Origin: a virus
Virus record (IMG/VR): IMGVR_UViG_3300031857_001231
Location: 1-25,720 of that record
DNA: 25,720 bases
Direction: 5' to 3' (one strand)
Shown: positions 14,765 through 25,720 of the stretch, piece after piece
How the letters are laid out: every line of letters starts with the position of its first letter
How positions within the stretch are numbered: position 1 is the stretch's first letter
The notes under the pieces: generated by a model
Seen by the model: only the letters and a program-made list of their open reading frames with translations
The model's database searches: none
What the model was told of the DNA's origin: nothing
Position numbers and translations under genes: made by a program

Positions 14765-15255
14765 GCGCTGATTTTGAATTCAAATTCGAGGGCGTAGGGG
14801 GATTGGTTTGTGCTGCCGCTGATTTTTTTCATGCGATAGTAACGGAATGCCGTGGTGTTGGCGGACAGCGCGGTGATCGTCGAAGTCGTTGCTCCGCCAA
14901 GCGTGAAGGTTGATCCAATGCTCGTCCAAGTGCTGTTGTCATTTGAGCCTTCCCATTGCCAGACTCCCTGAGTCTGTGCGCCGCTTTGATAAAATTTAAT
15001 TTCATTGATGACTTTAGCGGTGCTGAAATCGAATTTTAGCCATTCACCATTCGCGCACCCATTCGGCATCCAAATATTTGATGTGGCTTTATTTCCGTCC
15101 TTTAGCTGGAAGAAATTCACTGAGGCATTCATCGGGTTGCTCGCGCCCGACTGGGTTATTGTCGGGATGCCGCTGGTGCGATTGCCTGAGCCACCAGGAT
15201 TCGAGTAACTGGTGGAAACAGCCACAGAATACTGGAAGGAATTTACGAGGTTCAT
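14761..15255 (-). CDS. F5/8 type C (discoidin)-like carbohydrate-binding protein
   Basis: A 164-residue beta-rich protein consisting of one discoidin-like domain. The family pattern is visible: [37 protein letters not shown], then [18 protein letters not shown], then [24 protein letters not shown]. Such domains bind glycans. There is no signal peptide, consistent with a virion part. It is coded with a collagen-like fibre protein (4-nt overlap), so it may be the receptor-binding or decoration tip of that fibre. Codon use is AT-richer than in the tail genes, suggesting separate acquisition. Confidence 0.75.
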
Positions 15256-17177
15256 GCGCGAGTTCCGATAATGGTTACCTTCAACCCAGCGCCAGCGATG
15301 GTGCTGCCGATCTGGTCGATGTCGATAGTGATCTCTGAATCGTCCGCCAATGCTGAGTCTGATATTACTGCTGGAACGGCTGCTGTGGTGCTGGTTTTTT
15401 CTGTGACGTCGATGGAGAGCTTGGTGCTCAGGATGGAGGTTCCGTTTTCGTTGATGTCCACGATCAACGTTGATCCCGTGGGCGCAGTGCCAACACTTGC
15501 CCGCACAGACGTAACCGTCATCGCGCAGGGCATGCGAAAAGTTAGCTTTGTGGTTCCTGCGGTAAGTGCGGTAGTTTCGTCTGAAACTGCTGCTGAATAC
15601 TCAAATGGCATACCAACAAAGCTGCCACCTGCTCGATAAATGAGATTTCCTTCAATGGTTAAATTGCCAGCCGAGCTACGGGCGAGAGTCGTGTCAGAGG
15701 CATGACCAATATTTAGACTTCCGACTCCCAACGCCGTGGAGGTTGAAGCTGTGATTCCAGCAACAGGTAGGCCCGTGCAATTCGTAAGTGTTCCACTAGA
15801 TGGAGTTCCAAGTGCGCCATTCTGTAAGAGTAAAGTTCCAGAGGCGTCTGGTAGAGATATGGTTTGGTTTGATGTGGCTGTTCCGTTGAGAGTTGTGCGA
15901 GTCGTTGGTGCACCAAACCCAATTGAACCTGTGCCTGTTGTTATAATTGAACCTCCATTATTGCTGGTATCAATATTTCCGCCGCCGTTGCTCGTATTAA
16001 TATAGCCACCTGGATTACCATTTAATCCATCTGTTGCGTCTCCTCCATATGTGTGAATGTAACCACCATTACCTCCGCCGTAGTCACCCCCAGGATCGCC
16101 ACTTGTAAAACCGTTTCCGCCATTGGTTCGGATTTCTCCACCAAATCCGCCAGACCCACCTCCTGGACCTTGTGGTGTTGGTCCACCGTCGCCACCGTAT
16201 GTTAGTAAATTTCCAGCATTAGCTGTGAAAGCGCCGTTATCAGCACCAGATTGCATCCCTATTTTTGCCCTTGTCGCAACGGTTCCATCAATTGGCATCT
16301 CCAAATATGGATCAACCCAACGAATATCCGCACCTCCGAAGGCTCCTGAGTTGTTGAATTGCAACTCAGTGTCAACACCTCCAGGTGTTCCGCCGCTTCC
16401 CGCTGGCCCTTGCGGTCCTTCATTGCCAGTTGCGCCTGGCTCACCTTGCGGTCCTTGTGGACCCTGCGGACCTTCCGGCCCCGTTGGACCTTGTGGGCCC
16501 TGTGGGCCTTCTGGTCCCTGCGGGCCAATCATTGACGCATCGCTCCCAGCCGGTCCCTGTGGACCTTGTGGGCCTTGTGGACCCTGCGGGCCTTCCGGTC
16601 CCGTTGGACCTTCCGGACCCTGTGGGCCTTGGTTGTCTTGCAACTCCCAAACCGCAGCACCTTCGGTAGCATCGCTGCAAACCCACTCACGGCCGTCCTC
16701 ATGCACCCAGCGTGAGCCAACACGGAAACGCATCGAGGCTCGGTCATCATCGTTGACGCTTGGTACACCAAAGTTCATGCGAACCTCGCGGACACCTGCG
16801 CCACTTTGATCAAAGAACCAAAGCCTTCCACCCTCCCAGCGTTGACGATAATCAATCGAGCAGACCTGCTCGATGCCGCCTCCAGAGCCGAGGCTGCCGT
16901 AGCTTGGATCTCCAGCGTCGATGAAGGAGCCATTCTCGAAGTCAATCGGGATGCCGCCACCGACCCCATCAGCACCGGCTGGTCCCTGCGGACCTTCTGG
17001 GCCTTGAGGCCCATCGTTGCCTATTGGACCCTGCGGCCCTTGCGGCCCCTGTGGACCTTGCGAACCTTGCGGGCCTTGTGGGCCTGCTGAGCCTCCTGGA
17101 CCTTGTGGACCTGTTTGACCGATGGGGCCAATCTTGACTTCGACCAATGCGGTGCGTTTGATGATGTCAACGATCAT
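15252..17177 (-). CDS. Collagen-like fibre protein
   Basis: A 641-residue protein with two collagen Gly-X-Y blocks, rich in GPQGP and GPEGP triplets (about residues 17-72 and 180-268). A non-collagen domain with [35 protein letters not shown] lies between them. A Gly-rich region follows ([30 protein letters not shown]), probably a beta-helix shaft. A beta-sandwich-like C-terminus contains [37 protein letters not shown]. Collagen-like phage proteins form trimeric fibres. The short N-terminus [17 protein letters not shown] may attach it to the virion. Its place in the head-to-tail stretch, far from the P2 fibre, argues for a head or neck fibre. Confidence 0.85.
16388..16640 (-). repeat. Collagen-coding repeat block 2
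   Basis: Tandem 9-18 bp units coding Gly-Pro-Gln and Gly-Pro-Glu triplets, with variants of GGTCCACAAGG on the minus strand. It is imperfect at third positions, so the repetition is selected at protein level but can also recombine or slip. It is broken by GSDASMI near the middle. Confidence 0.85.
16978..17128 (-). repeat. Collagen-coding repeat block 1
   Basis: The first collagen block of the fibre gene, again made of Gly-Pro-Gln-type triplet codons in degenerate tandem copies. It follows the 16-residue N-terminal segment of the protein directly. It shares many 10-15 bp stretches with block 2. Confidence 0.85.
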
Positions 17178-17862: not shown

Positions 17863-19809
17863 TTAGTCGAGCACGCCGTAGCTAAAGGCGGCAGCGCGAC
17901 GGACTTCGAAGTCCACATCCTGGAAGTTGCTCACAATCACGCGGCCCTTGGTGGACTGCGTGTAAGGATCAACGATGATGTCGAGGCCGCCCCACATGCC
18001 GATGAGCAACTCGGAGAAGTCGCCAAAGAACACGTCGCCGTTGGCGATCTGGTTGGTGACTTCGGAGTCGTAACCGTTCACGCCGTTGCCTTCCCAGATG
18101 ATCATCGAGGTCGAGTCACTGGAGAAGCGCTTCGTGGTCTTGAAGTAGCCCTTCATGCGTGCGTTGTGCACGTAGCGGCTAGTGGCAAGATCAAGGTTGT
18201 CGGCTTCGACTTCCGTTTCCATCGACACCAGCTCGGCCCAGGTTGGGTTTGCACCGGCAAAGCCGACGAACTGGATGCCGCTGGTATTCTTGATGCCGAT
18301 TGGCGCATTGCCGGTGCCGTCACCATAGTAGCCAGCGAGGTCGATGGCCTGGCCCATGCAGGCAGCCAAGTCGCGGCGAAGGAGTGCTTCGACGTCGAGG
18401 CTGGACTGCATCAGCATCTTGCGAGTGACAGCGCCATGAGCGGCAACAGTCTTCGGCGAGAGGCTGATCTGACCAAAGGTCATGTCGCGCTGTGGTGCGC
18501 TCTCGTCTTCACCGATCCAGCCAGCGTTGGCGCTGTTGGTGAGCTGTTTCGGGATGTCGAGGTCGCCCACGAGTCCGCCGAGGATTGTGCCTAGGCGCAT
18601 GATGCTGGTCTTGTTGCGGAGCAGCTCGAAGTAGGAGCTGGCAAGCAGCGTCGTCTGGACGGTCTCGCCACCGGTGCCAGTGTAGCCACTGCCGGTCTTG
18701 ATGGACACGATGTCGCGGCGAGCTTCGTGAGAGAGCGGGCTGCGAAGGATGTCCACGGGGATGACGGTGCCACGAGCGCTCTTGCGGTGAGAGCGGGCAG
18801 CTTCGCAAACGTCCAGCTCGAAGGCTGCGTCTTCACGAAGACCTTTGTTCTGAGGGTCGCAAAGCGAGCGGATCAGCTTCACAAAGCTGAAAGAACGCGC
18901 TTCTTTGTCGTTCAGACCAATCGGAGTGTTGGACTCCTTGAAGGCAGCGCCACGCTTGCTGATTTCCTCAAGGGCGGCAGCGCGGAATTCATCGAGAGAC
19001 TTGCCCTCGGTGACATGGCGTTCAGCAAGCTCGGCGAGCTTGAACTGTTTGCCAGCCGTCATGATGTCGGCCATGCGTTTGCGTTCAGTTTTCACAGCGT
19101 CGCTGTTGTCTTCGCCGACCTGAATGCTGCGCTGAGAAGGCGCGGCGGGCTTGTATTCGGTGACCATCCGAACGAGTTCGGCGTCAGTGATTTCTGCGGA
19201 GGTTTGGATGCCGCGAGCGGCAAGCCATGCGATCATTTGCTCTTTGTTCATAAGATTGTTTTTTCGTGTCTGAGTTGGGTTGATGATTCGGCCCACGCCA
19301 ACAGACGAATCGGCGGGTGCTGAGACGATGCTGATTTCGTATGGCTCCCACTTGGTTACCAGATAAACATCATTCCCGTCGTCGCGGGTTTCTTTCAGCT
19401 TGATCTCGTTGATGCGGTAGCCAACGGACACGTTTTTCAGGATTCCGTCCTGAATATCTTGCCAGACTTCCTCGGCGTCCTCGCGCTTGGAAAAGCGAAC
19501 CAACGCCCTTCCTTTGCCGGTTCCGTCGAGCCAAGCCCGTTCGATGACTCCAAGCACCTCGTCGAGGTCATGGTTGAAAAGTAGTGGTCCGCCATTGTTC
19601 AGGCGGGAAAGATCGACAGCGCCGGCCGAGTGATCGAGCACTTCGATCATGCCGTAGCGCTTTACTTCGATGTCGCTGGAAAACGACAGTTCAATGGTGC
19701 GCTTGTCTTTGTCCACGTTCTCAACGGACATGACGCGATGACCAGCGGCCCCAGGTTCAAAGCCCTCGGGCAACTTACCAATGTCGCGGTGGAATAGACG
19801 TTTACGCAT
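17863..19809 (-). CDS. Fused prohead protease-major capsid protein (HK97 fold)
   Basis: A 648-residue fusion. Residues 1-180 form an S78 prohead protease: FSSDIEVKRYGMIEVLDH, FNHDLDEVLGV with catalytic His80, ILKNVSVGYRI with candidate Ser128, and EISIVSAPADSSVGVGR. Residues 187-300 give a helical, charged delta/scaffold-like region (MNKEQMIAWLAARG; MADIMTAGKQFKLAELAERHV). The HK97 capsid domain follows (TGSGYTGTGGETVQTTLLASSYFELLRNKTSIMRLG; AALLRRDL-like; GQAIDLAGYYGDGTG; GLDIIVDPYTQSTKGRVIVSNFQDVDFEVRRAAAFSYG). It builds and matures the capsid. The start at 19809 lies 9 nt after the portal stop, and an interspersed motif ends 30 nt upstream. An internal ATG at 19251 could yield free capsid protein. 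Confidence 0.93.
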   Translation of the reverse strand: MRKRLFHRDIGKLPEGFEPGAAGHRVMSVENVDKDKRTIELSFSSDIEVKRYGMIEVLDHSAGAVDLSRLNNGGPLLFNHDLDEVLGVIERAWLDGTGKGRALVRFSKREDAEEVWQDIQDGILKNVSVGYRINEIKLKETRDDGNDVYLVTKWEPYEISIVSAPADSSVGVGRIINPTQTRKNNLMNKEQMIAWLAARGIQTSAEITDAELVRMVTEYKPAAPSQRSIQVGEDNSDAVKTERKRMADIMTAGKQFKLAELAERHVTEGKSLDEFRAAALEEISKRGAAFKESNTPIGLNDKEARSFSFVKLIRSLCDPQNKGLREDAAFELDVCEAARSHRKSARGTVIPVDILRSPLSHEARRDIVSIKTGSGYTGTGGETVQTTLLASSYFELLRNKTSIMRLGTILGGLVGDLDIPKQLTNSANAGWIGEDESAPQRDMTFGQISLSPKTVAAHGAVTRKMLMQSSLDVEALLRRDLAACMGQAIDLAGYYGDGTGNAPIGIKNTSGIQFVGFAGANPTWAELVSMETEVEADNLDLATSRYVHNARMKGYFKTTKRFSSDSTSMIIWEGNGVNGYDSEVTNQIANGDVFFGDFSELLIGMWGGLDIIVDPYTQSTKGRVIVSNFQDVDFEVRRAAAFSYGVLD

Positions 19810-21358: not shown

Positions 21359-21847
21359 TCAGAATCGAACGGCGATTCGCGGCCCGAGGCCTGCGATGCC
21401 TTTGTTTTTGCGTTCTTCGCGCTGCACTTCGGCGGCAAAATGACTGCGAATCTGCAATAGCTCGGCCACGCTGTATCGTTCCAGTTCGCGATTGTTGATC
21501 TTGTAGCGGCGCACGCCTTCGACTGCCTGACCGGCGAGCATTGCGTCGATGGCTTCGAGCGATTTCCGAGCTTGGCTGCGGATGTCACCGGCTGCCAGGG
21601 CGGCGCGGATCGTGAACGAGTGCCGAGTAACGATGCGCTTCACGTTGCCCGTGAAGGTCGCCCAGACTTCGGCGGCATACTCGCCAGCGTTCAGGCTTGC
21701 AGTGTCGAGGTTGACCGTCCACTCGTTGCCGCTGGCGGTCATCGAAGCCGTGCCAGTCTTCGGGCCGCCATAGCGCAGTTCGACCGCCGTCGCATCGGCG
21801 ACAGTTTCGATGATGGTCAAAGTCTCGCCTTTTGTTAGAGTCGCCAT
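21359..21847 (-). CDS. Ig-like plus gpW-like head-tail joining protein
   Basis: A 162-residue protein between the large terminase and portal, the place of gpW in lambda. Residues 1-85 look like an Ig-like beta domain (VELRYGGPKTGTASMTASGNEWTVNLDTASLNAGEYAAEVWATFTGN). Residues 92-162 are helical and end in a gpW-like pattern: SLEAIDAMLAGQAVEGVRRYKINNRELERYSVAELLQIRSHFAAEVQRE, then GPRIAVRF. GpW fits under the portal and seals packaged DNA. Lambda gpW has only 68 residues, so this is a possible fusion. The ATG lies 13 nt inside the terminase frame. The gpW link is by position and pattern, not proven. Confidence 0.65.
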   Translation of the reverse strand: MATLTKGETLTIIETVADATAVELRYGGPKTGTASMTASGNEWTVNLDTASLNAGEYAAEVWATFTGNVKRIVTRHSFTIRAALAAGDIRSQARKSLEAIDAMLAGQAVEGVRRYKINNRELERYSVAELLQIRSHFAAEVQREERKNKGIAGLGPRIAVRF

Positions 21848-23781
21848 GATTGCACGAATGATGAGCGGCGACGAGGCTTTGACGGCCTTTCGCGCTGTGG
21901 TTCAGTTTGTGGCCCTGCCTCCGGTGCGTCTTGTGCGGTTGGTTCCGTATCGACGGCAGGCTCAACGGGCTTCGGTTTCTCGATCTGCATCGGTTGCGTT
22001 TTCTTTTTCATGCGGAAGGCCAGTTTTTCGAACTGCGGTGGCTGCATCACGAGCGCCGCGAATGCATAGACGCGGCAGTCGAGCGCCTCGTTTCGCACGC
22101 CGTTGGACTTCTGCCACTCACGCACGGCAAAGCCTTTGACATATCGGGTCATCAGCTTCTCGGCCACGAGCTGCCGGAACCATTCGGCTTCACGGCTGGC
22201 AGGGAAATGACAATATCCAGCGCCAGGAGAGTCGAGCTTCAGCCGGTTCCTCAGAGTCATCTTCGCGTTATCGACTCCAACGATGAACACGTCCACCGGC
22301 CTTTTGACCTTGCCGGAGCGGCGGCGATTCGGTGCCCCGATGACCGGCAGGCCAGCGCCACCTCGGCCCTTGATGGCAAACACGCCGGAGAACTTGTGCC
22401 GCTTGGCGTAGCCATAGACAGCCTGCGTATTGTGCCCGCCTGAGTCAATACAGGTGCGCGTGATACCGATCTCGACGCCCTGCTCATGCCGCCAGAGTTT
22501 CCGCAGGTAGCCGGTCAGCTCACTCCATGGTGAGCCTGCCTGTTCCTCCGGCAGGTCTGGGTCGCCGTAGATGATCTGATAGTCAATCGACCAGCTCTGT
22601 TCACCGGCACCCCATGCCACAACCTCGATCTCGAGGCGGTCCGGCTGCACGTCCACGCCAGCGGTTAGGATCAGCCCCTGCCGTGGCACGTCGTGAGCGT
22701 CCTGCTCAAAGCGCGGCCTGTTCATCAGGTCTTCGACCGTGATATCTTCGCCGCCACCATCCCAAGTCTCGCCGAGGATGGTGTTCACAAAGACCTTCAT
22801 TTGCTCGGGGTCTTTCTTCGCTTCGAGGAACGCCTTCACGCGGTCGGCAATCGGTCTCCACGGTGAATAGCCTGCCCAGATATGGAAGCCTGCGGTGCCC
22901 CTGAATGGCGCGTGCGCTTGCCAGTTCCCACGGCGCACGGCTGCGTTCTTCTGCGCGTCGGTATAATAGCCGTCGCAGTGCGGGCATATCCACAGCGCTT
23001 TCTTTGGGTCGTTCTTTGCCGGTGAGTCCGGCCCCCATCTCACATTCGACCATTGCAGCGTGTGAGCTTCTCCACAGTGCGGGCATGGGATGTAGTAGTA
23101 GCGCTGGTCGGAAAGCTGGAATTCTTGCTCGGTGCGGCTTTGATCCTTCCAGACGGGTGTGCCGCCCAGAAGAATCTTTCGATTCCAGAACGTCTCTGTT
23201 CGGCGCTCGGCCAGCAAGAGCGGGTCGCCTTCCTTGCCGGAGCTGGCAGGGTAGCGGTCGACCTCATCCGCCAGCACAACACGAATCGGACGGCTGGCGA
23301 GCTTCGACGGTGCATTGACGCCAACAATGGCAAGGTGCCCGCCCCTGAACATCTTGTGCAGCTTTTTGGACTTGGTCGATCTGACTTTGTTCTGGATCTT
23401 CGCGGCAATGGCAGGCGTGTCGCGGACCATCGGCGAGAATCGGTCCTCGCTCCATGCCTCGGCCATGTCCTCAGTCGGCTGGAGCATCAGCATCGGGCAC
23501 GGATCGTAGTCGATGTAATAGCCGATTGTGTTGTTGAGGATCTCGGTCCAGCCGATCTGCGACGACTTCATGCAGACCACTTTCTCAATCAACGGATCTG
23601 AAAGCGCGTCCATGATGCCGCGCTGAAACTCAGAGCGGCTGGTTTTCCACTTGCCAGGCTCGGCGCTGGCTTCGCTCGACAGGATGCGCTTGGCGTCAGC
23701 CCACTGCGAAACCGTCCACTTCGGTGGAGGTTCCCACTGGCGCGAGATGTCTTTGAAGAGGCTGGCAAGTGCAGGCGTCAT
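21835..23781 (-). CDS. terL: Terminase large subunit, lambda gpA-like
   Basis: A 648-residue packaging motor of the GpA family. The ATPase has a Walker A-like KSSQIGWT (residues 72-79) and Walker B LADEVDRYP (Asp172-Glu173). A zinc ribbon has CPHCG (233-237) and CPHCD (266-270). The nuclease begins with GVDVQPDRLEIEV (Asp377), then DSGGHNT and a C-terminal NEALDCRVYAFAAL. It cuts and packages phage DNA into the prohead. Length equals lambda gpA (641). The start overlaps the small subunit stop by 4 nt. The C-terminal 60 residues are a Pro/Glu/Lys/Arg-rich tail with EPTAQDA coded by an interspersed motif copy. Confidence 0.95.
   Translation of the reverse strand: MTPALASLFKDISRQWEPPPKWTVSQWADAKRILSSEASAEPGKWKTSRSEFQRGIMDALSDPLIEKVVCMKSSQIGWTEILNNTIGYYIDYDPCPMLMLQPTEDMAEAWSEDRFSPMVRDTPAIAAKIQNKVRSTKSKKLHKMFRGGHLAIVGVNAPSKLASRPIRVVLADEVDRYPASSGKEGDPLLLAERRTETFWNRKILLGGTPVWKDQSRTEQEFQLSDQRYYYIPCPHCGEAHTLQWSNVRWGPDSPAKNDPKKALWICPHCDGYYTDAQKNAAVRRGNWQAHAPFRGTAGFHIWAGYSPWRPIADRVKAFLEAKKDPEQMKVFVNTILGETWDGGGEDITVEDLMNRPRFEQDAHDVPRQGLILTAGVDVQPDRLEIEVVAWGAGEQSWSIDYQIIYGDPDLPEEQAGSPWSELTGYLRKLWRHEQGVEIGITRTCIDSGGHNTQAVYGYAKRHKFSGVFAIKGRGGAGLPVIGAPNRRRSGKVKRPVDVFIVGVDNAKMTLRNRLKLDSPGAGYCHFPASREAEWFRQLVAEKLMTRYVKGFAVREWQKSNGVRNEALDCRVYAFAALVMQPPQFEKLAFRMKKKTQPMQIEKPKPVEPAVDTEPTAQDAPEAGPQTEPQRERPSKPRRRSSFVQSWRL
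21928..21947 (-). repeat. Interspersed motif copy 4, inside the terminase tail
   Basis: The core GGAACCAACCGCACAAGAC lies within codons for EPTAQDA near the end of the large terminase gene. It ends 80 nt before the next start (21847), further than the other three copies. No alternative start is visible at 30 nt. Peptide sequence here and in the portal tail is the same (PTAQDA). Confidence 0.55.
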
Positions 23782-24350
23782 TCAGTGGCTTCATCGTCGT
23801 CCTCTGGTTCGATCTCCTGCGGTTCATCGCTTTGAGTGGCGACGTATTGCTTTGTGACGCTCTCAGGCGAGTAGTCCGCCAGCTCTTTCAAGGCTTCGTT
23901 GACGCCGTGCTGAATGGCTTCTTTCCGCTCCTGAATTGTCATGCCTTCGAGCTGAGAGGCTAGCGTGGTCGGCAGGCTGAGCAGCTTGGCGCGTGCGTTG
24001 CCAATCATGTCAGCCCAGACGGCGGCGACAGCTTCGGCATCGTGAGCGGTGCCTTTTTTGAGGTCCGCATCAAGCTCGGCAATATCGGCTTTGGCTTTTG
24101 TAAGGCGTGCACGGTGGGCTTCATAGTCCCCGGGGTTGTCAGCTTCTCCGGCGCTGCTCCACTGGTTCACCTTTCGCTCTTGCAGATACTTGATGTAATT
24201 TCGGATTGATTGCCACAGGTCATACTTGCCACGAGCCACGCGGATGACCACGCCGTCGGCCACGAGTTGGTGAATGCGGACTGCAGTGAGGTTGAAAAGT
24301 TTGGCAAGCGTGCCGACTTCGACGCTCGGGCTTTCGGCAGGTCGGCTCAT
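23778..24350 (-). CDS. terS: Terminase small subunit, lambda Nu1-like
   Basis: A 190-residue DNA-packaging recognition protein. The N-terminal winged helix-turn-helix has SVEVGTLAKLFNLTAVRIHQLVADGVVIRVARGKYDLWQSIRNYIKYLQ (residues 9-57). This closely follows the Nu1 pattern for DNA recognition and is followed by LTKAKADIAELDADLKKG and a helical oligomerisation region. The end is very acidic (DEPQEIEPEDDDEATE). It binds the packaging site of phage DNA and hands it to the large subunit, with which it overlaps by 4 nt. The start overlaps the glycosyltransferase stop by 4 nt, linking packaging with the DNA-modification genes upstream. Confidence 0.88.
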   Translation of the reverse strand: MSRPAESPSVEVGTLAKLFNLTAVRIHQLVADGVVIRVARGKYDLWQSIRNYIKYLQERKVNQWSSAGEADNPGDYEAHRARLTKAKADIAELDADLKKGTAHDAEAVAAVWADMIGNARAKLLSLPTTLASQLEGMTIQERKEAIQHGVNEALKELADYSPESVTKQYVATQSDEPQEIEPEDDDEATE

Positions 24351-25222
24351 TTTTTGTGGCTAGAGTCGAGGATTTTCGGCACGGCATTGTTCCATTTGAT
24401 TTTGTGATGCAGTCGTTTCATGGATGCCGTTACTGTAGCCACTGCAAACGATGGGCAGGTCATCACCGTATAGAATGATTTGACGTAGGTGCCTCCAGCC
24501 AGATAGGCCTCGGACATGCCGCCAGTGGTTGCTTGAGTCTGGGCCTGTTGCAGGTAAACCTCGGGCATTGTAAAAAACAGCCGACCACGATGACCGAGCG
24601 AAAGGTATGTGTTCACATCCTCATTTAGGCGGCTAAAAAACCAAAACCGGCGCGAAGTCTTGCAGAAAAACGAGTTCATGGCTTTTCTGTTTTTCCACGG
24701 AAATGACTGCCTTCGCCATTGTGTCGATTTTTCGCCTCCGATCATGTCACCTGTTTGCATCATGCAAACAGAATCAATGCGTTCATCATAATCGAGAAAG
24801 TGGCGCATGATTTCAAAAACAGGATCGAGCTTCTTGATTTTGCGCCTCAGGAAATTTCCATCAGTGCCAAAAGTGAACCGGAAATCTGTGTAATCGTCAT
24901 CCAGGACAAGGAAATACTCAAAGCCAAGCTGAGCTGCAAAGTCAAAGCAGGAGTTTCGTGCGTGAGTTGTCGTGCGTCGATTCTGGAAGTTGTCGCAGTT
25001 GTCAACGAGCGAGGAATAATGCAGCTTGTCAAAAACGAGCACCATCTCAGCGCCAAAGTTTGCCCGATACTGCTCGACAGTTTTGTCCTCATTATCGCAG
25101 ACGATGAACAGCGGCCCTGTGTAGCCGCAGCGCTTGAGAGTTTTAAGCGTGACAACTTTATCAGGTCGCCCGTGGCTAATGATGAACGTGCAGAAATTAT
25201 TCATCAGCGTTGGTGTCTTCAT
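24347..25222 (-). CDS. Glycosyltransferase, TET-associated (TAGT)-like family
   Basis: About 291 residues. The N-terminus CTFIISHGRPDKVVTLKTLKRCGYTGPLFIVCDNEDKTVEQYRANFG has the shape of GT-A nucleotide-sugar binding. The DxD-type motif FLVLDDDYTDFRF is typical, and RNSCFDFAAQLGFEYF and GRLFFTMPEVYL are further recognisable segments. TAGT enzymes are known to be coded with TET/JBP dioxygenases in phages and to add sugars to hydroxymethylated bases. No TET gene is visible in the window. I chose ATG 25222 because GAGGA lies 5 nt upstream. ATG 25204, 8 nt inside the upstream stop, begins with a very family-like MNNFCTF and is also possible. Codon use is AT-richer than in structural genes. Confidence 0.75.
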   Translation of the reverse strand: MKTPTLMNNFCTFIISHGRPDKVVTLKTLKRCGYTGPLFIVCDNEDKTVEQYRANFGAEMVLVFDKLHYSSLVDNCDNFQNRRTTTHARNSCFDFAAQLGFEYFLVLDDDYTDFRFTFGTDGNFLRRKIKKLDPVFEIMRHFLDYDERIDSVCMMQTGDMIGGEKSTQWRRQSFPWKNRKAMNSFFCKTSRRFWFFSRLNEDVNTYLSLGHRGRLFFTMPEVYLQQAQTQATTGGMSEAYLAGGTYVKSFYTVMTCPSFAVATVTASMKRLHHKIKWNNAVPKILDSSHKK

Positions 25223-25720
25223 CTGGTTCCTCGGCTCCAAGAGCGCCAGCAATCTCATCCTTCAGCTTCACATATCCGAGCTGCATCGCTTTCTTGAAGT
25301 CGATGATGATCAACGCGGAGTTTTCCATCAACTCCTGAGTTTTCTTGTCTGCGTGACAATAAAACTCGGCAATTTTCTCAAAGTTGAAAATCGTGTGACG
25401 TGCCGCGGCGGCTTTCAGGAATGCCGCCACTTCATCCGGCAGTTGAGCTTTGTTGATCTGATTCAGCAACTCATCGGCTCGTGACCGGTCAAGCAGTTCA
25501 CTGACTGGCGGCTTTTCTCCTTTCGGCTCATAAACCGGCGCATCAACCTTGTGAGTGTAGTTGTCAGACAGCCCGTCAGTTTTAGGCTCATCAGGATTAA
25601 GTGCTGCCTCGATTGATTCGGCATCAAAACCCATGATCCCAAGGTCAAAACCGACCTCTCGCAATGATGAAAGCTCAACGGCTAAAAGCTCCTCGTCCCA
25701 GCCAGCGTTCAGCGCCAGTT
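25197..25720 (-). CDS. ParB-like domain protein, C-terminal part
   Basis: This frame enters at the right edge with its N-terminus missing. The visible 174 residues open LALNAGWDEELLAVELSSLREVGFDLGIMGFD, the last strand and helix pattern of the ParB/Spo0J-like N-terminal domain as seen in phage ParB-methylase proteins. A linker (YTHKVDAPVYEPKGEKPPVSELLDRSR) and a helical module AAAARHTIFNFEKIAEFYCHADKKTQELMENSALIIIDFKKAMQLGYVKLKDEI follow. No methylase catalytic motif is in the visible part. It likely links DNA recognition to the adjacent glycosyltransferase, whose start lies within its last codons. A role in DNA-modification targeting is inferred. Confidence 0.75.
   Translation of the reverse strand, partial: LALNAGWDEELLAVELSSLREVGFDLGIMGFDAESIEAALNPDEPKTDGLSDNYTHKVDAPVYEPKGEKPPVSELLDRSRADELLNQINKAQLPDEVAAFLKAAAARHTIFNFEKIAEFYCHADKKTQELMENSALIIIDFKKAMQLGYVKLKDEIAGALGAEEPDEDTNADE

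Follow-up and report, generated by a model that had tools for sequence, protein, structure and literature searches.

A ParB-like protein and a TAGT-family glycosyltransferase form a recurrent viral gene pair that may be a late DNA glycosylation module

In viruses and prophages of many bacterial phyla, and in viruses of haloarchaea, the gene of a TAGT-family glycosyltransferase lies downstream of a gene encoding an unnamed helical domain, usually attached to a ParB domain, which we denote CTD. This CTD is likely the missing partner of one large TAGT clade. Our leading reading, which in our judgement stands about an even chance of being correct, is that the pair forms a late-expressed two-component glycosylation module, presumably with DNA as the acceptor. 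It is based on the gene pair itself, the obligate CTD-TAGT linkage, the folds, the catalytic motifs, the late-operon position and purifying selection, and also on the failure to find known base-hydroxylating partners.

The window, by which we mean the whole stretch of DNA analysed here, is an entire virus record of 25,720 bases; sheath and baseplate genes identify it as a fragment of a contractile-tailed phage. At its right end four genes lie on the minus strand, in the transcribed order ParB-like, TAGT, terminase small subunit (TerS) and terminase large subunit (TerL). The ParB-like gene (25197-25720, minus strand; phrog_620, E 6.4e-17) is represented by its C-terminal 173 aa, with the N-terminal part lying past the right edge, and its stop codon is at 25197-25199. 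The TAGT gene (24347-25204, minus strand) encodes 285 aa from its best start, the ATG at 25204 (MNNFC...), and an upstream ATG at 25222 is a possible alternative. The initial annotation had described these two genes as overlapping each other, and the TAGT gene as overlapping that of the small terminase subunit. Both overlaps are borne out, the first as 8 nt shared by the ParB stop and the TAGT start (25197-25204, minus strand) and the second as a 4-nt ATGA at the TAGT stop and the TerS start (24347-24350, minus strand), and the two family matches are confirmed. The location beside the terminase is also real and conserved, with TerS (23778-24350, minus strand; phrog_57, E 7.7e-34) followed by a gpA-type TerL (21835-23781, minus strand; PF05876 and PF20454, E 1.3e-86 and 6.1e-91, respectively). 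The 8-nt overlap was found again in an E. coli prophage copy of the pair (L145). Elsewhere in the window, one 648-aa ORF (17863-19809, minus strand) fuses a head protease (Peptidase_S78) to the major capsid protein (Phage_capsid), and a collagen-like repeat protein with internal DNA repeats (15252-17177, minus strand; PF01391, E 1.7e-10) is encoded between capsid and tail genes.

The CTD spans positions 25224-25559 on the minus strand, is about 115 aa long, and is recognisable by the pattern YTxKI..PxYEPxGEKP...RHxVFxYxxIAEFYxHA...LMExSALVIID. It has no Pfam match above cut-off, and the part of the protein model after residue 163, in which the CTD was modelled within the whole protein, yielded weak and scattered PDB matches (Z about 3). 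When viral contigs were scanned with the ParB alignment alone, at least 80 loci were recovered among the matches listed (600 pattern matches). A TAGT gene lies downstream on the same strand in 78 of the 79 new viral loci among the matches listed, mostly overlapping, and the remaining locus (L133) stops at a contig edge. Conversely, in 36 of 36 bacterial-genome loci that were found through TAGT, a ParB/CTD gene overlaps or adjoins it; eight phage records and 14 viral loci with an upstream partner are all likewise paired. The pair is therefore not a chance neighbourhood, as it recurs in every retrieved relative that has enough flanking sequence.

The CTD is the constant element of the upstream protein. 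At least two types of ParB domain accompany it, and in Vibrio T4-like phages and four contigs (L035, L039, L042 and L058) a CTD without ParB_N still precedes TAGT; stand-alone CTDs occur in L024 and in these four contigs. Mean pairwise identity is 0.47 for the CTD and 0.46 for TAGT, and 0.39 for the ParB part. With an invariant CTD, a ParB domain that is variable or absent, and CTD and TAGT similarly conserved, CTD and TAGT form the core, to which the ParB domain is a swappable attachment. The association marks one clade of TAGTs: T6 and Aeromonas phage 65 have TAGT without a credible CTD, their best matches reaching E about 0.002 at a distance from TAGT, compared with E 1e-45 for true CTD carriers. 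Four contigs (L033, L037, L044 and L058) carry tandem duplicated or triplicated TAGT genes beside a single CTD gene, an arrangement that suggests the use of several sugars or the building of an oligosaccharide.

The glycosyltransferase itself is a clear member of its family, matching PF20691 with E 6.2e-36 and 124.7 bits (curated cut-off 27.5) and phrog_842 with E 1.4e-62. Its predicted structure is a GT-A fold (pLDDT 89) that superimposes on the protein glycosyltransferase GnT I (Z 14.1, 199 residues, 3.9 A) and similarly on GalNAc-T2 (Z about 14). The acidic metal/donor-binding motif of the family is present as DDD (24893-24901, minus strand; residues 109-111 in the 292-aa numbering), of which D110 and D111 are invariant across 83 homologues, as are D203, H273, H274 and K249. 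Comparing enterobacterial copies in pairs gave dN/dS values of 0.05-0.16 for TAGT and, for ParB, mostly of 0.08-0.28, so that the E. coli copies are under purifying selection. Given the fold, the invariant motifs and the low dN/dS, TAGT is predicted to be an active enzyme; the same dN/dS values rule out a decayed gene, save in phiLdb and Ld17, two phages of Lactobacillus delbrueckii with a broken TAGT.

Full-length relatives of the ParB-like protein match PF02195, and the P-motif arginine is kept in 81 of 88, so that both features by which the ParB CTPase fold is recognised are present. The model aligns with CTP- or CDP-bound ParB and Noc over 130 residues (Z about 15.7, rmsd 2.6), and a survey of ParB folds reported that NTP binding is lost when the P-motif arginine is mutated (PMC12704722). 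Homology links the ParB part to the N-terminal region of ParB-DNA-methyltransferases (PADLOC MTase_II, E 1.5e-40, residues 10-151; phrog_498, E 1.8e-53), and a 'modification methylase' with 42% identity to it was found among viral models. It does not resemble the ParB of a ParABS partition system: TIGR00180 scores below cut-off, the CTD replaces the HTH/dimer domain, and no ParA is encoded in the annotated neighbourhoods of the pair. A role in plasmid partition was rejected, the CTD being absent from 72,556 plasmids (PLSDB). A known defence gene was likewise rejected, as PADLOC gave no match for TAGT or the CTD and matched ParB only to the N-terminus of a methyltransferase model.

The pair is widespread. 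It occurs in genomes assigned to Verrucomicrobia, Bacteroidetes, Gamma- and Alphaproteobacteria, Desulfovibrio and Firmicutes, and further to Gastranaerophilales, Cloacimonadota, Falkowbacteria, Kiritimatiellae and Spirochaetes; single host assignments may be wrong, because many of these genomes are MAGs. Named phages with the pair infect Nocardia, Lactobacillus, Porphyromonas, Vibrio (CTD-only, in T4-like phages) and Haloarcula. In 885 of 5,426 complete E. coli genomes (~16%, about one in six), 80% or more of the pair's DNA is present at a single site, within a Rac-type prophage between trkG and the terminase (L145:15001-16717). Among 149 Enterobacteriaceae species genomes, only E. coli itself has the CTD. 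In the K-12 gene ynaK, the first 85 codons of the ParB gene run into the region that precedes ydaY (L162:3001-3264); ynaK is a truncated ParB remnant. RefSeq marks the intact ParB gene of some strains as an incomplete ynaK even though the frame is open for 262-264 aa (L159-L161), probably because it uses the remnant of K-12 as reference. Lactobacillus phages offer a natural knock-out series: the pair is intact in phage c5, whereas TAGT is split or internally deleted in phiLdb and Ld17 (L022:836-1713 and L144:75-833). The function is therefore dispensable in some hosts.

Gene order points to the time at which the pair is used. In the phage population of the window a late activator gene immediately precedes it (L026, see below), and in phi jlb1 a transcriptional activator gene does so; in E. 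coli it follows holin, endolysin and trkG and precedes the terminase, and in c5 the operon next to cos on its downstream side is that of the pair. In most of 81 loci, a terminase or portal gene is the largest ORF found downstream of TAGT. Since the pair follows late activators, lysis genes or cos and precedes the terminase, we propose that it is expressed late. A mostly marine-looking group (L012/L093, L104, L105, L107, L110, L115, L116, L118, L120, L123, L125, L132 and L135) has a gene of about 315 codons between ParB and TAGT, which in the members examined (e.g. L012:9058-10002) encodes a fusion of a histidine phosphatase and an HldE/TagD-like nucleotidyltransferase, similar to HldE/glycerol-3-phosphate cytidylyltransferase. 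Turning a sugar bisphosphate into an NDP-sugar requires just these two activities, and the fusion therefore suggests synthesis of a sugar donor.

Putting these elements together, we propose that the ParB-like protein would use its N-terminal NTP-binding domain to load on or slide along DNA, probably in an NTP-dependent manner, with the CTD as a putative adaptor docking TAGT. TAGT would then move a sugar from a nucleotide-sugar onto what we presume to be the phage DNA, shortly before or during packaging. The donor might be a host UDP-sugar in most phages, and in the marine clade is probably a special NDP-sugar supplied by the intervening phosphatase-nucleotidyltransferase. Glycosylated incoming DNA may then resist nucleases in the next host, which would give the module an anti-restriction role.

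The main rival, which we nevertheless consider unlikely, is that TAGT glycosylates a protein, either a packaging or virion protein (terminase, portal or capsid) or ParB, with the ParB/CTD protein presenting the substrate. The position of the pair directly before terminase or portal genes in most loci speaks for such a target, as does the likeness of the GT-A model to GalNAc-T2 and GnT I, and no acceptor base is known for the pair. GREB1-type relatives in the TAGT superfamily are reported to modify protein, which also counts for this possibility. However, the ParB domain is of the type associated with DNA methyltransferases, and in the CTD-only phages the pair lies amid replication genes rather than structural ones. 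Moreover, the terminases and portals next to the pair come from many families that are not related to one another, so that no common protein target is apparent.

The T2/T6 TAGT glucosylates DNA bases (PMC13216743). For TAGT-type and related enzymes of phages, the DNA acceptors described are pyrimidines that are hydroxylated or carry glucose already (PMC13390438, PMC13216743). The initial annotation had taken the pair for part of a DNA hypermodification module, the rest of which was expected just beyond the right edge, with a TET/JBP dioxygenase, a cytosine methylase or further modification enzymes as candidates. This region is accessible through contig L026, which belongs to the same phage population (99.98% identity to the window over 10,137 bp, 98.3% over the last 118 bp), is binned as Verrucomicrobiaceae, hinting at a verrucomicrobial host, and reaches 4.8 kb past the window edge. 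L026 supplies the ParB_N part (PF02195, E 2.5e-7; phrog_15396, E 1.7e-56), past which come a short late-transcriptional-activator gene (phrog_836, E 1.4e-13), a hypothetical ORF that matches no family, and a DNA primase. Nothing in these 4.8 kb is recognisable as a TET/JBP, a methylase or another base-modifying gene, so that the expected remainder of the module is absent there. Relative to the window, the ParB gene of L026 has a 174-bp deletion (window 25429-25602), which could be either a true variant or an assembly error.

Wider searches gave the same picture. We searched 15 ParB-TAGT virus records and one CTD-only Vibrio phage with PF00303 and PF00145; for the window's own phage the dCMP-hydroxymethylase search covers fragments. 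No C5-methylase (PF00145) was found in the 16 records. No dCMP hydroxymethylase, the mark of the T-even HMC glucosylation pathway, was found in them either: the single PF00303 match is a thymidylate synthase with the VPFN motif in the Vibrio T4-like phage, which therefore fails as proof of an HMC acceptor. No TET/JBP was found in 11 + 48 partly overlapping records (about 55), many of them fragments, with a profile lacking validation on a known phage TET and with a silent PF20515 control. Hence there is no evidence of a base hydroxyl introduced by known enzymes. The annotation had named the lack of any base-modifying gene near the pair as evidence against its proposal, and such a lack is largely what we observed; the version with a TET partner therefore fails, and the more general idea of glycosylation survives. 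A role in DNA modification is still the best reading, given the methyltransferase-type ParB and the DNA-modifying activity of known TAGTs.

An ordinary TET-TAGT or HMC-glycosyltransferase pathway could also be at work with its first step undetected, the base being hydroxylated by an unrecognised phage or host enzyme such as a divergent TET/2OG dioxygenase. We think this improbable. It would agree with the pyrimidine acceptors described for TAGT-type enzymes, many phage genes are unnamed, and the TET controls are weak; but the PF00303 search does detect T6 gp42, a dCMP hydroxymethylase used as positive control, and no candidate is annotated in c5 (31.8 kb) or phi jlb1 (38 kb), two small, fully sequenced phages with the pair. 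The spread of the module over viruses of hosts as distant as Haloarcula, Lactobacillus and E. coli also argues against it. The accessible part of the literature on HHTV-2 contains no statement on DNA hypermodification, nor did any measurement of virion DNA come to light.

Least probable of all is an action of the pair on host molecules, nucleotides or DNA ends, in counter-defence or regulation rather than in genome-wide base modification: the top Foldseek match of the TAGT model is indeed AvpGT, a nucleoside 3'-O-glucosyltransferase (PMC11959488), and the pair lies near the terminase, and in c5 near cos, but AvpGT shares only about 18% identity with it, the scores of other GT-A enzymes are similar, and glycosylation of 3' ends should keep cos ends from being ligated.

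Returning to the DNA glycosylation module, a bolder form of it, which we regard as doubtful, is that CTD-ParB and TAGT are a self-sufficient, hydroxylase-free system common to bacterial and archaeal viruses, including Rac-type prophages, in which a ParB-type NTP-driven clamp would guide the transfer of sugar directly to an ordinary base, for example at an exocyclic amine.

That TAGT is associated with DNA modification is already known, and so are unexplained solitary TAGTs: among 753 phage genomes with GT genes, a 2026 survey counted 288 whose TAGT homologues are solitary, with no alpha- or beta-GT, and regarded these homologues as potentially novel transferases (PMC13216743); the word 'ParB' is absent from its text. 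We found no description in the available literature of the CTD and of how nearly absolute its linkage to TAGT is, of the apparent lack of a precursor pathway or of the link to E. coli and K-12; an earlier account of ParB-TAGT neighbourhoods may exist, the most relevant prior survey being Iyer et al. 2013 (NAR 41:7635). Our data give one large TAGT clade a likely partner in the CTD, usually carried on a ParB domain, and predict late expression and a donor pathway. Small Lactobacillus phages, with intact and broken TAGT, and E. coli prophages are convenient test systems. If the pair does glycosylate DNA at a base that is not hydroxylated, this would be new nucleic-acid chemistry; if it instead glycosylates protein, a very common phage gene pair would still be explained.

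Several known systems resemble the pair in part. Mom of phage Mu offers an analogy, being a phage gene that is expressed late and serves to modify DNA ahead of packaging, with an enzyme and a chemistry unrelated to TAGT. RefSeq names the E. coli TAGT 'GREB1-related protein', and we take GREB1-related proteins and the kinetoplastid base-J glycosyltransferase to belong to the same superfamily; here, in contrast, the gene is that of a prokaryotic virus and has a ParB/CTD partner. The beta-glucosyl-HMC-alpha-glucosyltransferase of T2/T6 shares the Pfam family (PF20691, TAGT) and the GT-A fold, but ggt of T6 adjoins dCMP hydroxymethylase and has no CTD partner, whereas the clade of the window is distant and no dCMP hydroxymethylase was found with it. 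The TET/JBP-TAGT hypermodification operons, from which the name TAGT comes, have TAGT in common with the pair, and the actinophage Tonitrus has a ParB-like gene beside a TET-like gene (PMC11955845); the pair differs from these operons in its obligate CTD partner, and no TET/JBP was found past the edge or in the records searched, with weak controls. Finally, phages are reported to carry fusions of a ParB fold to an N6_N4-MTase (PMC12704722), and the ParB-DNA methyltransferases (phrog_498, PADLOC MTase_II) share with our protein a homologous ParB domain plus linker; in the present pair the CTD stands in for the C-terminal methyltransferase, and the enzyme is a separate glycosyltransferase.
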